Below, piece after piece: positions 4,528 through 20,711 of a stretch of DNA of 20,711 nucleotides. The stretch's first letter is position 1. Every line of letters begins with the position of its first letter. This DNA comes from a virus, in IMG/VR virus record IMGVR_UViG_3300027141_000026, positions 1 to 20,711 of that record; one strand, given 5' to 3'. The notes under the pieces were generated by a model. It searched no databases. It was not told the origin of the DNA and saw only the letters and a program-made list of their open reading frames with translations. Position numbers and translations under genes: made by a program.

Positions 4528-5529
4528 GTGACTGCAACTCTTACTCAACTTGGTCAGTCTAACAAGGCTGGCGATACTAAAGCTCTTTTTCTGAAACTCT
4601 TTACGGGTGAGGTCTATGAGGCCTTCCGTAATGCTACCATTGCCAAGGGTCTGGTTCAGAACCGCACCCTGCGTAACGGCAAGGAAGCTCAATTCATTCA
4701 CACCGGTCGTATTTCGGCTGGCTATCACACCCCCGGTTCTGCTATCCTTGGTAGCGGCAACCCTCCGGTGGCTGAGACCACCATCGCCATGGACGACCTG
4801 CTGGTGGCGTCTGCGTTCGTGTATGACCTGAACGAGACCCTGGCCCAGTATGACATCCGTGGTCCTATCGCCCGTCAGATCGGCCAAAGCCTGGCTGAGT
4901 TCTACGATCGCCGCATCTTCCGTGTGCTGGATCGTGCCTCTGGCCTGACTGCCGCTGTGACCGGTGAGCCTGGTGGTTTCCGCGTGAACCTGGGTGCCAA
5001 CAAGGAGTATGATGCTCAAGCCCTGGTGGATGGTTTCTTTGAAGCCGCTGCCCGCCTGGACGAGATCGCTGCCCCTAAAGAGGGTCGTGTGGCTGTGCTG
5101 GCTCCTCGTCAGTACTATGCACTGATCAGCCAGGTGGACACCAACATCCTGAACCGTGAATACGGCAACAGCCAGGGCAACCTGAACAGCGGTGAAGGTC
5201 TCTATGAGATCGCTGGTATCAAGATCTACAAGTCGAACAACATCCCCTTCCTGGGCAAGTATGGTTCGGCTGCCGGTACCGCCATTGATGCGGCTGCTGT
5301 GACTGGTGAAAACAACAACTACGGTATCGCTACCGACTTCACCAACAGCTGCGGTCTGATCTTCCACCGTGATGCTGCTGGCGTTGTGGAGGCAATCGGT
5401 CCTAGCGTTCAGACCACCGGTGCTGACACCAAGGTGATCTATCAAGGCGATGTTATCGTCGGTCGCCTTGCATACGGCGCTGGCGCTGTGCGCGTTGCTT
5501 GCGCTGGTGCTTTCCGTAACCTGGCCTGA
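4528..5529 (+). CDS. Major capsid protein, T7 gp10 family (cyanopodovirus type)
   Basis: A 333-residue HK97-fold shell protein (T7 gp10A has about 345). The N-terminus (DTKALFLKLFTGEVYEAFRN) aligns with T7 gp10 (DKLALFLKVFGGEVLTAF). The stretch KEAQFIHTGRISAGYHTPGS, the MDDLLVASAFVYDLNETLAQ block and the C-terminal VIYQGDVIVGRLAYGAGAV fit the versions I know from marine cyanopodoviruses. The frame closes at a TAA (4504-4506), and GTG 4528 is the only usable start. It has no Shine-Dalgarno site. Codon use is strongly biased (CTG, CGT, GGT, ACC, AAC), as expected of the most abundant protein. A long open frame on the opposite strand is a by-product of that bias. I see no slippery site for a T7-like 10B extension. 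Confidence 0.95.
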   Translation: MTATLTQLGQSNKAGDTKALFLKLFTGEVYEAFRNATIAKGLVQNRTLRNGKEAQFIHTGRISAGYHTPGSAILGSGNPPVAETTIAMDDLLVASAFVYDLNETLAQYDIRGPIARQIGQSLAEFYDRRIFRVLDRASGLTAAVTGEPGGFRVNLGANKEYDAQALVDGFFEAAARLDEIAAPKEGRVAVLAPRQYYALISQVDTNILNREYGNSQGNLNSGEGLYEIAGIKIYKSNNIPFLGKYGSAAGTAIDAAAVTGENNNYGIATDFTNSCGLIFHRDAAGVVEAIGPSVQTTGADTKVIYQGDVIVGRLAYGAGAVRVACAGAFRNLA

Positions 5530-5536
5530 TTCATTT

Positions 5537-5570
5537 GGGGATTTCTTCGGAGGTCCCCTCCCTTTTCTTT
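5537..5570 (+). terminator. Intrinsic terminator after the capsid gene (T-phi equivalent)
   Basis: A nine-pair stem, 5537-5545 with 5550-5558 (including two G-U pairs), closes a TTCG tetraloop with a C-G pair, the classic extra-stable C(UUCG)G form. The pyrimidine tail TCCCTTTTCTTT follows directly at 5559-5570. It lies eight bases after the capsid stop and before the tail tubular A gene, the same position as T7 T-phi between genes 10 and 11. By analogy it would lower transcription of the downstream genes relative to the capsid gene. Confidence 0.85.
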
Positions 5571-5583
5571 CTGTCCGATACAG

Positions 5584-6183
5584 ATGACTACCAAACTACA
5601 AGCAATTAATCAGATGCTGTCTGGTATCGGGCAGGCACCCGTAGTGTCTCTCGATATTTCTAATCCCGAAATCGCCCTGGCGGAGTCAATTCTTGATGCC
5701 GTTAATCGGGAAGTTCAAGGCGAAGGTTGGCACTTTAATACTGAAGTCAACTATCCCTTTACTGCCGATGTTAATGGTCAGATCTTTGTGCCAGTCAATG
5801 TGCTGCAACTTTCTGATAACAAATATTCGAATACGCAAAAATATCAAACTGTACTTAGAGATGGCAAACTTTACGATAAGATCGGGCACACCTATACCTT
5901 TACTGCTAACAGCACCGTGAAATGCGATGTTGTTTGGCTTTTTGATTTTGAAGATCTCCCTCAGGTCTTTAAAGATTATATTACTCAACGTGCTGCTCGG
6001 GTGTTTGCTGGTCGAGCCCTTGGTTCCCAGGAAATGGTGACCTTCAACGCTCAAGACGAAGCTAACCTGCGAGCTAACTGTATTGCCTATGATACTGGCA
6101 CCTCTGATGTAAACATCTTTGGTGTTGAAAGTGGGCAGAACTTCTACGTTTCTTACACTCCGTTCCGAGCTATTGCACGATAA
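5584..6183 (+). CDS. Tail tubular protein A, T7 gp11 family
   Basis: A 199-residue protein, nearly the same length as T7 gp11 (196). It forms the adaptor ring between the portal and the nozzle. The opening (TKLQAINQMLSGIGQAPVVS, then LDISNPEIALAESILDAVNR) is characteristic of the family, as are the central GWHFNTE and the later DYITQRAARVFAGRALGS. It lies directly after the capsid terminator and before gp12, as in T7. ATG 5584 has no Shine-Dalgarno site. Its stop overlaps the next start by one base (TAATG). Confidence 0.95.
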   Translation: MTTKLQAINQMLSGIGQAPVVSLDISNPEIALAESILDAVNREVQGEGWHFNTEVNYPFTADVNGQIFVPVNVLQLSDNKYSNTQKYQTVLRDGKLYDKIGHTYTFTANSTVKCDVVWLFDFEDLPQVFKDYITQRAARVFAGRALGSQEMVTFNAQDEANLRANCIAYDTGTSDVNIFGVESGQNFYVSYTPFRAIAR

Positions 6184-17215: not shown

Positions 17216-18607
17216 ATGGCAATCGTCCAAAACACTTATACAGGGAATGGGTCTACCACGATCTATTCCCTGTCTTTTTCTTACCTAGATGAGGCGGACG
17301 TTAAGGTTACTCTTAATGGAGTGGCCACCACCTCATTTGTTTTCGTTAATGCCAGCACCATTCAATTTCTGTCGGCTCCTGCCAATGGTGTTGCCATTAT
17401 CATTTATCGTGAGACCAACAACGACGCCTCTGAGGCTACGTTCTTTGCTGGTTCTGCGATCAAAGCAGCTGACCTGAACAATAACTTTACACAGCTGCTT
17501 TACGTTGCTCAGGAAGTCTTTGCCCGTACTCTTAGTACCCTTGGTGGTACGTTGTCGGGTATCCTGAACATGGGCGGTTACCGGATTACTAATCTTGGTA
17601 CTCCTTCTGCTGGTACGGATGCTTCCACAAAAAACTATGTGGATAGCAATGTTGGTGCAGTGTCGGCTTCTGCTGTTGCTGCGGCTGCCTCTGCGGCTTC
17701 TGCGTCGGCTTCTGCGGCCTCTGCCACGTCCTCTGCTAGTAGTGCCTCCACAAGTGCTTCTAACGCCTCTACCAGTGCCTCTAACGCAGCAAGTAGTGCG
17801 GCAGCATCTCTAGCTTCTCAAAGTGCGGCAGCCGGTAGTGCATCTTCGGCATCTACGTCTGCATCCAACGCAGCTACCTCTGCCTCTAACGCAGCCACCA
17901 GTGCCACCAACGCCTCTAACAGTGCAACCAGTGCTGCCAGTTCTGCTGCTTCTGCTCTGGCTGCCTTTGACAGCTTTGATGACCGCTACCTTGGTGCTAA
18001 GGCTACCGACCCTACTGTTGATAATGATGGCGATCCGCTGAATGCGGGTGACCTTTATTACAACACCACCTCTTCGGTGATGAAGGTCTACACTGGCTCT
18101 GCTTGGGTTATTGCTTATGTCCCTGGTGATGCAGCCAGCATTAGCTTTGCCCCGTATAGCACGATTGCGTCTAACAACGTTCAAGGTGCTATTCAAGAGC
18201 TGACCGATGAGAAGCTCAACCTGACTGGTGGAACCCTTACTGGTGACGTAACTCTTGGTAACCAGTCTGACCTTCGCTTTGGTGAGGCTACTGCTAACGG
18301 TACCAACTGGGTTAGCTTCCAAGCACCTGCCAACATTACTAGCAACGTCACTTGGACGCTTCCTGCAACTGATGCTTCTGTTAGTGGCTATGCCCTGAAG
18401 TCCAACGGTGCGGGTGTGCTGTCTTGGGGCCTTGCTGGTGGTGCACTGGGTGGAGGCACGGATCAAGTTTTCTATGAAAATGATACCGTAATCACTCAGA
18501 ATTACGCCATCGGAACTAACAAAAACGCCCTGACGGCAGGACCCGTAACTATTAACTCTGGAGTCACAGTTACCGTGCCCTCTGGATCTGCTTGGAGTAT
18601 TGTTTAA
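17216..18607 (+). CDS. Tail fibre protein with T7 gp17-type N-terminus
   Basis: A 463-residue fibre. Residues about 1-100 are the T7 tail-fibre N-terminal domain that docks to the tail (YTGNGSTTIYSLSFSYLDEA, then DVKVTLNG, FAGSAIKAADLN, and VAQE). A collar-like segment follows (LGGTLSGILNMGGYRITNLG, TKNYVDS). Residues about 150-250 are Ala/Ser/Asn heptads, then a short beta-rich tip (DRYLGAKATDPTVDNDGDPL, GDLYYNT, LKSNGAGVLSW). It is shorter than T7 gp17 (553) and lacks an obvious enzymatic or intramolecular chaperone domain, so the receptor-binding tips are probably supplied by the downstream fibre genes. No Shine-Dalgarno site at ATG 17216. Confidence 0.92.
   Translation: MAIVQNTYTGNGSTTIYSLSFSYLDEADVKVTLNGVATTSFVFVNASTIQFLSAPANGVAIIIYRETNNDASEATFFAGSAIKAADLNNNFTQLLYVAQEVFARTLSTLGGTLSGILNMGGYRITNLGTPSAGTDASTKNYVDSNVGAVSASAVAAAASAASASASAASATSSASSASTSASNASTSASNAASSAAASLASQSAAAGSASSASTSASNAATSASNAATSATNASNSATSAASSAASALAAFDSFDDRYLGAKATDPTVDNDGDPLNAGDLYYNTTSSVMKVYTGSAWVIAYVPGDAASISFAPYSTIASNNVQGAIQELTDEKLNLTGGTLTGDVTLGNQSDLRFGEATANGTNWVSFQAPANITSNVTWTLPATDASVSGYALKSNGAGVLSWGLAGGALGGGTDQVFYENDTVITQNYAIGTNKNALTAGPVTINSGVTVTVPSGSAWSIV
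17663..17967 (+). repeat. Ala/Ser/Asn heptad repeats in the tail fibre
   Basis: About 100 codons encode seven-residue units such as STSASNA, ATSASNA, ATSATNA and ASSAASA. The period and the regular Ala positions fit a trimeric coiled-coil shaft (the 'phage tail repeat' type). At the DNA level the units are near-repeats of GCCTCTAACGC and related stretches, so the segment could lengthen or shorten by recombination. Confidence 0.8.
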
Positions 18608-18609
18608 TT

Positions 18610-19080
18610 ATGCCTATTACTATTAACGGATCCGGAACCGTAACCGGAATTACAGCAGGCGGCTTGCCCGACGACTGCATCACCACGGCGGACATTGCGG
18701 CCAACGCTGTCACCTACGCCAAGATCGGCACCACTGAGCAGGGGCAACTTTGCAAAGCGTGGGTGAACTTCAACGGCACCTCAACGGTGGCAATCCGCGC
18801 CAGTTACAACGTGAGCAGTATTACGGATAACGGGACAGGGGACTATACGGTGAACTTCACAAATGCAATGCCGGATTCAAATTATTGTCCTGTATTTGGC
18901 ACTAATTCATGGTCAGCAACAGACGCTGGTGGCGACAGAACCCTAAAAATAAAAACGAATGGAACTGCTATTGACAATGGCTCGCCTACTACAATGACGA
19001 CCTCGGCTTTGCGAGTAATTACGGGCGGGTTTAGCTTGGATAGAGATCATGTGTATTGCTTGGTAAGCATCTTCCGCTGA
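18610..19080 (+). CDS. Tail fibre-like protein (accessory adhesin 1)
   Basis: A 156-residue protein from ATG 18610, two bases after the main fibre stop; a TTG at 18592 would overlap the fibre and is less likely. The first 74 residues include an entry motif (PITINGSGTVTGITAGGLPD, then ITTADIAANAVTYAKI) and KAWVNFNGTSTVAIRASYNV, a module that I know as common in fibres of cyanophages and prophages. The second half (NTMPDSNY-like, then DRTLKIKTNGT and SALRVITGG) is a beta-rich tip. DNA of the first part is GC-rich and the last part AT-rich, which suggests an exchanged tip. Likely a fibre subunit carried distal to or beside the main fibre. Confidence 0.8.
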   Translation: MPITINGSGTVTGITAGGLPDDCITTADIAANAVTYAKIGTTEQGQLCKAWVNFNGTSTVAIRASYNVSSITDNGTGDYTVNFTNAMPDSNYCPVFGTNSWSATDAGGDRTLKIKTNGTAIDNGSPTTMTTSALRVITGGFSLDRDHVYCLVSIFR

Positions 19081-19089
19081 GGTAACTCC

Positions 19090-19503
19090 ATGAACCGAAT
19101 TATCTACCAAAACGAGACCGGCGGAGTCTCCGTCATCATCCCAACCGAGTCCGTGGAACTGGCTCTCAAGGATGTCCCCGAAGGCGTTGCCTACGAAATT
19201 GTCGATGTTGACGACATCCCCAGTGACCGCTACTTCCGCAATGCGTGGGTCATGGGCGACCGCTGCGTGGAGCACGACCTCGATAAGTGCAAAGAGATTG
19301 GCCACGACCGTCGCCGCCAGCAACGCGCTGAGGAGTTCAAGCCCTACGACGAGGTGATCATGAAACAGATCCCTGGTGCTGACGCTGTTGCAGCAGAAGA
19401 AGCCCGCCAAGAGATCCGCGATAAGTACGCCCTAATCCAAGACGTGATCAAAGGCGCGTCTACCCCTGACGAAATCAAGACCGCCCTGGAGGTGAACCAA
19501 TGA
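19090..19503 (+). CDS. Putative tail fibre assembly chaperone
   Basis: A 137-residue charged soluble protein. The opening MNRIIYQNETGGVSVIIPTE and the later FKPYDEVIMKQIPGADAVAA, EEARQEIRDKYA pattern match small phage proteins encoded next to fibres and usually called tail assembly chaperones. It follows adhesin 1 by nine bases and has a Shine-Dalgarno site (TGAGGT, 19078-19083) six bases before ATG. Its last codons (ALEVNQ) contain the Shine-Dalgarno site GGAGGTG of the next fibre gene, and its stop overlaps that start as ATGA. Third codon positions are C-rich, unlike the core structural genes. Confidence 0.7.
   Translation: MNRIIYQNETGGVSVIIPTESVELALKDVPEGVAYEIVDVDDIPSDRYFRNAWVMGDRCVEHDLDKCKEIGHDRRRQQRAEEFKPYDEVIMKQIPGADAVAAEEARQEIRDKYALIQDVIKGASTPDEIKTALEVNQ
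19481..19503 (+). repeat. Chaperone-fibre junction repeat, copy 1 (with SD site)
   Basis: Begins with CCGCCCTGGAGGTGA and runs to the ATGA overlap. The same 23-base block recurs at 20232-20254 with two mismatches. It encodes the end of the chaperone-like protein (ALEV) and at the same time supplies GGAGGTG five bases before the next fibre start. Confidence 0.85.
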
Positions 19504-20072
19504 CCTTACGTCTCAACGGCAGCACATCGGGTTACACCGAGATCGACGCTCCGGCGGTGGCTGGCTCGAACACGCTGGTGCTTCCGACTGGTAATGGGTC
19601 CAGCGGGCAGGTGCTCAGCACCAATGGCTCGGGGGCGTTGAGTTGGGTTGATCGGTTCAGTGCCGCTGGTCCGGCGTTTTCCGCGAAACGTAGCACAACG
19701 CAAAGCATTAGCGCATCTACATGGACAAAGGCTCAACTTGATAGCGAAGATTTTGACACTGCATCGTGTTTTGATTCATCAACAAACTATAGATTTACTC
19801 CAAATGTAGCTGGCTACTATCAATTAAATGCGTCGCTTCAGATAAACAACGTTATAGGCTCGTATCAACTTGCAATCTACAAGAATGGCAGCTCTTTGCT
19901 TCTTGCCCAATACCACAACTCTACAACTAGCGGAAATGCTGGTGCGTTAAGCGGTCTTCTTTACTTAAACGGCTCAACTGATTACGTTGAGCTGTATGGC
20001 TTTACAAATACATCTAGCAACGGATTTTATGACCGCACTTATTTTTCCGGTTTCTTGGCTCGCCCCGCATGA
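19500..20072 (+). CDS. Tail fibre-like protein with C1q/TNF-like tip (accessory adhesin 2)
   Basis: A 190-residue protein. Residues 1-55 are a short fibre adaptor with the motif SGQVLSTNGSGALSWVDR, related to LKSNGAGVLSWG in the main fibre. From about residue 55 the sequence (AGPAFSAKRSTTQSISASTW, then TKAQLDSEDFDT, then YRFTPNVAGYYQLNASLQIN and a C-terminal FSGFLARPA) is a C1q/TNF-like jelly roll, a trimeric binding head found on many phage fibres. The adaptor DNA is GC-rich and the head AT-rich, with the switch near 19685. The start has the strongest Shine-Dalgarno site of the region, and translation is coupled by the ATGA overlap. Confidence 0.85.
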   Translation: MTLRLNGSTSGYTEIDAPAVAGSNTLVLPTGNGSSGQVLSTNGSGALSWVDRFSAAGPAFSAKRSTTQSISASTWTKAQLDSEDFDTASCFDSSTNYRFTPNVAGYYQLNASLQINNVIGSYQLAIYKNGSSLLLAQYHNSTTSGNAGALSGLLYLNGSTDYVELYGFTNTSSNGFYDRTYFSGFLARPA

Positions 20073-20254
20073 CCATGACTCTCTACGAACAAATCATCGC
20101 CATCTATCCCGAGCTGCAGCCTGAGGACTTCCTCAAGGTGATCACGCTCCAAAACGACTCCGATGGTCGGGGTGATTACATCAAAGCCTGGAACCATCCC
20201 ACGCTTCCAGAACCCACCGCTGACCAGCTCGCCGCCCTGGAGGTGACCCCATGA
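20069..20254 (+). CDS. XkdW-like small phage protein, putative fibre chaperone
   Basis: A 61-residue protein (TLYEQIIAIYPELQPEDFL, then VITLQNDSDGRGDYIKAWNH, then PTLPEPTADQLAALEV). It matches the XkdW family, known from PBSX-like and other prophages, where the gene follows a fibre gene. The biochemical role is not established; a chaperone or connector role for the neighbouring fibre is inferred. ATG 20069 overlaps the previous stop as ATGA; an in-frame ATG at 20075 is an alternative that would give the shorter MTLYEQ start. Its 3' end is the second copy of the junction repeat and overlaps the next gene as ATGA. Confidence 0.8.
   Translation: MTMTLYEQIIAIYPELQPEDFLKVITLQNDSDGRGDYIKAWNHPTLPEPTADQLAALEVTP
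20232..20254 (+). repeat. Chaperone-fibre junction repeat, copy 2 (with SD site)
   Basis: Matches 19481-19503 at 21 of 23 bases, in the same place relative to the stop-start overlap. It encodes the ALEV end of the XkdW-like protein and supplies the GGAGGTG site for the next fibre gene. Confidence 0.85.
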
Positions 20255-20711
20255 GCACGCTATCCACCACCAACCTCAAGAACCCCAGCTCCGGCAGCAA
20301 CAACATCGTGCTGGCGACTGACGGTAGCGCCACGATTGCCACGCTTAGCAGCACCACGATTACCGGCACCACAATTCAAGGCACGATTAAGTCTGGCACG
20401 TCCGTTGCTTCGACCAGTGGCACGTCGATTGACTTCACGAGCATCCCAAGCTGGGTGAAGCGGATTACGGTGATGTTTCAGGGTGTTTCCACCACTGGCA
20501 CTTCACAAATACTTATAAGATTAGGCACTGCATCAGGTTTCATTTCTACTGCAGGAACATATCTTGGATCTGCTGATGACATGGGGTCTGCCGTCGGTCC
20601 AAATAATTTATCAACCGGGTTTAGCTTTGAGGACACCTCAATGGCCTCCGCTGCAGTTAGACATGGAACTGCAATGTTGTGCAATATCACGGGCAATAAT
20701 TGGATTTTTTC
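20251..20711 (+). CDS. Tail fibre-like protein (accessory adhesin 3), cut by window end
   Basis: An ATG at 20251 overlaps the XkdW-like stop (ATGA) and opens a frame with no stop to the end of the window, 153 complete codons. Residues 1-45 (LSTTNLKNPSSGSNNIVLAT, then Ser/Thr-rich repeats such as TITGTTIQGTIKSGT) form a fibre adaptor. Residues about 48-76 contain TSIDFTSIPSWVKRITVMFQ, a module recurrent in cyanophage and prophage fibres, and the rest looks like the beginning of a beta-sandwich tip. DNA switches from GC-rich to AT-rich near 20500, as in the two earlier adhesin genes. Confidence 0.8.
   Translation, partial: MSTLSTTNLKNPSSGSNNIVLATDGSATIATLSSTTITGTTIQGTIKSGTSVASTSGTSIDFTSIPSWVKRITVMFQGVSTTGTSQILIRLGTASGFISTAGTYLGSADDMGSAVGPNNLSTGFSFEDTSMASAAVRHGTAMLCNITGNNWIF

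Follow-up and report, generated by a model that had tools for sequence, protein, structure and literature searches.

Small adhesins and putative tip-specific chaperones in an ordered cassette behind the tail fibre of a cyanobacteria-type T7-like virus

Why should a T7-type phage carry, 3′ of its main tail fibre, a row of small fibre-like proteins alternating with small putative helper genes? The window, i.e., the whole stretch of DNA analysed, comes from a T7-type phage and covers 20.7 kb of it; the capsid protein shares 71% identity with its counterpart in Synechococcus phage S-CBP2. The virus is of the cyanobacteria type and has small host-binding proteins in series 3′ of the main tail fibre. 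A sequence-only reading had named the genes from the main fibre to the third adhesin, and all of them are open frames where it had placed them. The features are as follows.

17216..18607, + strand: main tail fibre, T7-type; N-terminal PF03906 domain, Ala/Ser-rich shaft, conserved C-terminal junction module, no variable head
18610..19080, + strand: adhesin 1 (A1, slot 1); anchor MPITINGSGT; T1 tip; matches phrog_11355, tail fiber protein, E 1.5e-20
19090..19503, + strand: helper A, cognate of T1 tips; 245 relatives; AlphaFold pLDDT 81
19500..20072, + strand: adhesin 2 (slot 2); anchor MTLRLNGSTSGYTE; C-terminal C1q-like tip
20069..20254, + strand: helper B, XkdW family, cognate of C1q tips; PF09636, 34.7 bits
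20251..20711, + strand, cut by the window end: adhesin 3 (A3, slot 3); anchor MSTLSTTNLKNP; T2 tip

Three of the starts (19500, 20069 and 20251) lie in ATGA overlaps, and helper A starts 9 bases past the A1 stop, with a GAGG-type site before it; the coupling of starts claimed earlier is borne out. Contigs L004 and L005 are identical to the window where they overlap it, and both extend beyond its end. There, A3 is complete at 206 aa (L005 7162–7782) and is followed by a 60-aa gene, helper C (L005 7786–7968), the third helper, which lies outside the window. The comparison of gene order past the window end, proposed as a check, thus lengthens the alternation by one step: adhesin 1, helper A, adhesin 2 (C1q), helper B (XkdW), adhesin 3, helper C. 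Further 3′ in these contigs are a holin-like gene, a glucosaminidase lysin and, farther on, terminase, the holin and terminase being named by eye. The layout is far beyond chance, as IMG/VR holds 245 relatives of helper A and most of the 80 loci read keep the order.

By sequence comparison, each small adhesin is built of an N-terminal anchor, which defines slot 1, 2 or 3, and a C-terminal tip. The anchors follow the order 1, 2, 3 in nearly all loci. DNA comparison finds conserved blocks at window positions 19068–19628 and 20231–20486, with the sequence between them replaced; adhesin 2 is conserved up to 19628, beyond which it is swapped between phages. That is, the adhesin starts are constant and the tips are exchanged, in slot 2 together with the helper behind. 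By these alignments, tips pass between phages along with the small gene that follows them.

The rule behind this exchange is found in the tips. The helper A search of IMG/VR, which gave 245 matching stretches and the 80 loci read, was enlarged to about 230 loci by scans with the XkdW, helper D and helper C families, and profiles were made, five for families of tips and five for families of helpers. The family to which the C-terminal tip of an adhesin belongs predicts that of the following helper across different N-terminal anchors. The pairs are T1 with helper A, C1q with XkdW, TD (ending MEVAA) with helper D, TE (ending SAEL) with helper E, and T2 with helper C. Cognate pairs make up 227 of the 232 distinct tips that have a helper, against a permutation mean of 51 and a maximum of 73 in 10,000, although these counts overstate the number of independent events because the loci are related by descent and were dereplicated only at identical last 60 residues. 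Since fetching loci by helpers A–D favours pairs, pairs were counted again with each tip family restricted to loci that had not come from a search with its cognate helper, giving TE-helper E 43/46, TD-helper D 13/16, T1-helper A 34/42 and C1q-XkdW 3/3. Helper A stays with T1 tips on slot-1, slot-2 and slot-3 anchors, and also where the tip is fused to a T7-type fibre. A failure of the genes to co-vary between phages had been offered earlier as grounds for giving up the pairing; the co-variation found favours it.

The families differ in how strictly they keep the rule. Helper A is found behind T1 tips in 74 of 84 cases, plus 5 runs of same-family tips, and a C1q-type tip precedes XkdW in 29 of 30 distinct cases. 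Most of the T1 exceptions and several of the C1q exceptions are same-family runs with one helper in common, or have the tip and the helper separated by an HNH gene. Four of the five non-cognate helpers (in L147, L150, L152 and L161) are chimeras that join the front half of helper C, which fits the T2 tip, to the back half of helper D, so that the tip-fitting N-terminal half is kept and the C-terminal half is changed. T2 tips (n = 91) are the loosest: 44 stand directly before helper C, 12 more are in runs ending with helper C, 4 have a chimeric helper, and the remaining 30 or so, about a third, have none. It follows that at least one tip family needs no linked helper. T2 tips in slot 2 are often helper-less (L019, L061, L063), although helper C usually follows T2 tips in slot 3.

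The family assignments themselves are of uneven strength. Helper B exceeds the XkdW cut-off (34.7 bits against 24.6), and an XkdW profile search of the PDB gave its namesake 2hg7 at E 0.3 only. Adhesin 2 falls just under the C1q cut-off (PF00386, 23.1 against 23.7), and 10 of 30 of its relatives match C1q at E<0.01, the best at 2.2e-7. A further large adhesin type was seen in the slot-3 region of L017 (771-aa gene) and L014 (354-aa gene), with GYQISRSLRFN near the start and an ATGA overlap with the preceding small slot-3 protein; none of the five helper families was seen behind it.

What might the helpers do? Peptidase_S74 is an intramolecular chaperone that is removable. Some adhesins in the same slots end in this domain (PF13884 near the C-terminus in L016, L036, L038, L070 and L118, at 37–43 bits against a cut-off of 22). 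A helper of the five families is found behind 0 of 22 distinct S74 tips, a set that includes a few weak profile matches, versus 227 of 298 tips of other families (Fisher p 2e-13). The absence of helpers behind S74 tips is expected if helpers are chaperones supplied in trans. The earlier proposal that each tip is paired with its own helper thus holds at the level of tip families; in the literal form of a helper for every tip it is rejected, as S74 tips have none, same-family runs share one, and about a third of T2 tips lack one.

The T1 tip of adhesin 1 gives a clue to what a helper may recognize. In the alignment, a conserved scaffold (residues 48–92) is followed by hypervariable loops (residues 93–145). 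Over 43 distinct loci, pairwise identity is 84% for the T1 scaffold, 15% for the loops and 79–81% for helper A. A helper this constant cannot match loops this variable, so helper A most likely binds the scaffold; recognition of the variable loops by helper A was considered and rejected on these figures. Helper A would then most likely serve the T1 tip scaffold rather than the receptor.

In its AlphaFold model (pLDDT 81), helper A has a β N-terminal domain (residues 1–62) and a helical C-terminal domain (residues 64–135). This predicted two-domain layout, together with chimeric helpers that join different halves, agrees with the layout of Tfa chaperones. The helper genes are also like those of Tfa chaperones in lying immediately behind the fibre and in matching its C-terminal domain (227/232 cognate). 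Helper A matches no Pfam family, Tfa included, and profile searches of the PDB with the helper A and A1 families found no matches. A Foldseek search of helper A against the PDB gave nothing at E<0.001; Pam3 (7ypx) ranked ninth at E 1.8, which is not evidence. Among predicted viral structures, the fold search returned only relatives of unknown function, the best a protein of S-CBP42. Because there is no significant fold match, helper A is reckoned to work like Tfa and is not filed as a member. Adhesin 1 itself gave a weak model (pLDDT 68.7) and no fold match. The halves of helper A are separate genes in L060, phage 1.052.A (Enterovibrio), NATL2A-133 and 9515-10a. In L235 (Vibrio phage 1.052.A), the N-half and C-half genes lie at 4986–5861 with an adhesin-like gene between them; the protein encoded upstream is annotated as a carbohydrate-binding module and has the junction module of the main fibre at its C-terminus.

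The main fibre has a T7-type N-terminal domain (PF03906, 86.5 bits against a cut-off of 25.2) and ends in the conserved junction module, approximately residues 416–463. Its last 48 residues are 60–63% identical to a siphophage fibre, and its last 130 residues are 69% identical to an Mtd_N protein. In the alignment, 48 of 49 distinct proteins encoded just before slot 1 end with the module of about 50 residues, whatever their kind: a T7-type fibre (PF03906) in some loci, a short fibre behind a λ-J-type protein (PF24801 + PF13550) in L006, and an Mtd_N protein (PF18454) in L012. The main fibre, said earlier to have a short C-terminus with no evident binding domain, does lack a variable binding domain at its end, the last ~50–130 residues being a conserved module common to upstream proteins of unrelated phages. 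At L081 4572–4790, a 72-aa protein consists of the module by itself, and three T1 adhesins follow directly. A resemblance to the slot-2 anchor in residues 365–404 of the main fibre (45% over 40 residues) suggests that fibre shaft and anchors may share repeats.

The cassette as a whole is thus found behind T7-type fibres, λ-J-type siphophage tails and Mtd_N proteins. The siphophage contig L006 is one case: its A1 and helper A are 95.5% and 96% identical to those of the window, the DNA is 91% identical over 1.1 kb beginning inside the junction module, and the anchors of adhesins 2 and 3 are also in common, while its other genes on the contig have no homology to the window outside the cassette and the last 48 fibre residues. 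Such comparisons show that the unit moves as a whole between unrelated phages and joins the upstream fibre within its last ~50 residues. In S-CBP42 and the metagenomic L077, a T1 tip is fused to the main fibre with helper A behind. In MW202796, a circular genome with a myovirus annotation, C1q is paired with XkdW and TE with helper E, and Methylophilales phage MEP401 has in a row C1q-XkdW, an S74 adhesin without a helper, and TE-helper E. HNH endonuclease-type genes are seen between adhesins or between tip and helper (L064 5529–5999, L012 7057–7545, L018, L051, L074, L086); that of L012 is PF13392, and the others were judged by eye. The inserted HNH genes may drive slot exchange, and through the cassette, viruses may exchange host specificity piece by piece.

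We consider it likely that the cassette is a modular receptor-binding unit in which the small proteins are tail-fibre chaperones and the adhesins may be docked near the main-fibre module. We infer, with good support, that the helpers are probably cognate folding chaperones, like Mu Tfa or Pam3 gp25. In the proposed mechanism, each helper would recognize, through its variable N-terminal half, the scaffold conserved within one tip family, and the helical C-terminal halves, which are exchangeable, would trimerize so that three tips fold together, as with Pam3 gp25 and Mu Tfa. Because the helper would read the scaffold and not the receptor loops, the loops could vary freely. Gene order and the shared module suggest that the adhesins belong to the virion and dock at or close to the module that ends the main fibre, an arrangement that would give several binding tips per fibre, as in the branched apparatus suggested earlier. 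A broader generalization is tentative and may well go too far: the cassette would be a slot-ordered, transferable kit of podoviruses, siphophages and probably myoviruses, in which a common docking module takes adhesins according to their anchor type, three at most, each tip family has a dedicated helper or the in-built S74 chaperone, and hypervariable loops on a helper-recognized scaffold let specificity change with foldability kept.

How else could the locus be read? A chance mosaic of unrelated small phage genes, lacking functional pairing, is hardly credible. Phage tail regions are generally mosaic, as is well established, and several of the small genes have no known family, but the pairing by tip family holds across anchors, unrelated upstream genes and named isolates, and the pairing and the S74 exclusion already contradict this explanation. 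It is improbable, too, that the small proteins are virion parts, either tip caps or a receptor-binding adhesin comparable to T4-like gp38 adhesins (S16) or Mu Tfa. Some tail-fibre helpers do stay in virions (Mu and Ur-lambda, as cited in PMC9608196), and a tip-helper complex would also show exchange of tip and helper together. However, conservation is far higher in helper A than in the loops of its tip, the reverse of what a receptor-binding adhesin would show; S74 tips, with their own removable chaperone, never have a helper; and mass spectrometry found Pam3 gp25 absent from virions (PMC9608196).

A further alternative, less likely than not, concerns the branching: the adhesins would attach independently to the tail, or to different positions on it, and the module would be a recombination junction only. 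Recombination breakpoints do fall in the junction module, the anchor types differ from adhesin to adhesin and keep a fixed slot order, and no docking site was identified. Against this, T7-type fibres, siphophage fibres and Mtd_N proteins all retain the module at their end, directly before slot 1, and it also stands alone in L081. Being kept in that place and able to stand alone, it is suggested to have a function as protein.

Fibre-chaperone pairs that are exchanged between phage families are already known (PMC9608196, PMC10579305). Gp25 of the myocyanophage Pam3, seen by cryo-EM, is reported to have a variable fibre-binding N-domain and a conserved trimerizing C-domain and to be absent from virions (PMC9608196). 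The gp24–gp25 pair recalls helper A in that a small gene beside the fibre encodes a β N-terminal and a helical C-terminal domain (PMC9608196); unlike the window, Pam3 has a single fibre gene, and neither the sequence nor the fold of helper A matches gp25 significantly. Likewise, the host-recognition module of Alteromonas phages A5 and V22, common to distantly related phage families, consists of a fibre and a cognate chaperone that resembles S74 intramolecular chaperones (PMC10579305); it is one pair, whereas the window cassette is an ordered three-slot array with several tip families. Mu Tfa shares with the window helpers a gene directly behind the fibre, a match to the fibre's C-terminal part and the two-domain layout, but membership is not claimed for helper A, which no Pfam family matches. 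In passages of an account of metaviromic islands of marine phages, C1q-domain and XkdW genes are among the most variable and fibre C-termini are variable (PMC3909814); unlike here, those passages contain no description of C1q tips paired with XkdW.

The closest isolate is Prochlorococcus phage P-SSP7. Its genes 036–041 comprise a T7-type fibre with the same C-terminal module and slot-1, slot-2 and slot-3 anchors in order. In contrast to the three tip families with their own helpers in the window, P-SSP7 has three TD tips with one helper D in common and a fourth TD-type gene after them. Thus, the earlier premise that T7-type phages normally have one fibre gene here is correct for T7 and fails for P-SSP7, with its same run of small adhesins. 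In the open-licence literature, no paper settling the presence of the adhesins in P-SSP7 virions by proteomics was found, nor, in a non-exhaustive search, a description of the ordered multi-slot form with tip-family-specific helpers. As P-SSP7 is an isolated phage with published imaging, the rule is directly testable. If it is right, the tip family and chaperone of many ‘hypothetical’ aquatic phage genes could be named from gene order alone, the pairing rule would tell which helper to co-express for a functional adhesin, and the cassette would offer unrelated phages a molecular means of sharing host specificity.

Elsewhere in the window, upstream of the connector gene, a 243-aa gene (457–1188) matches no Pfam family at E<0.001; its EERH and DEQTH motifs recall, by eye, di-iron proteins.
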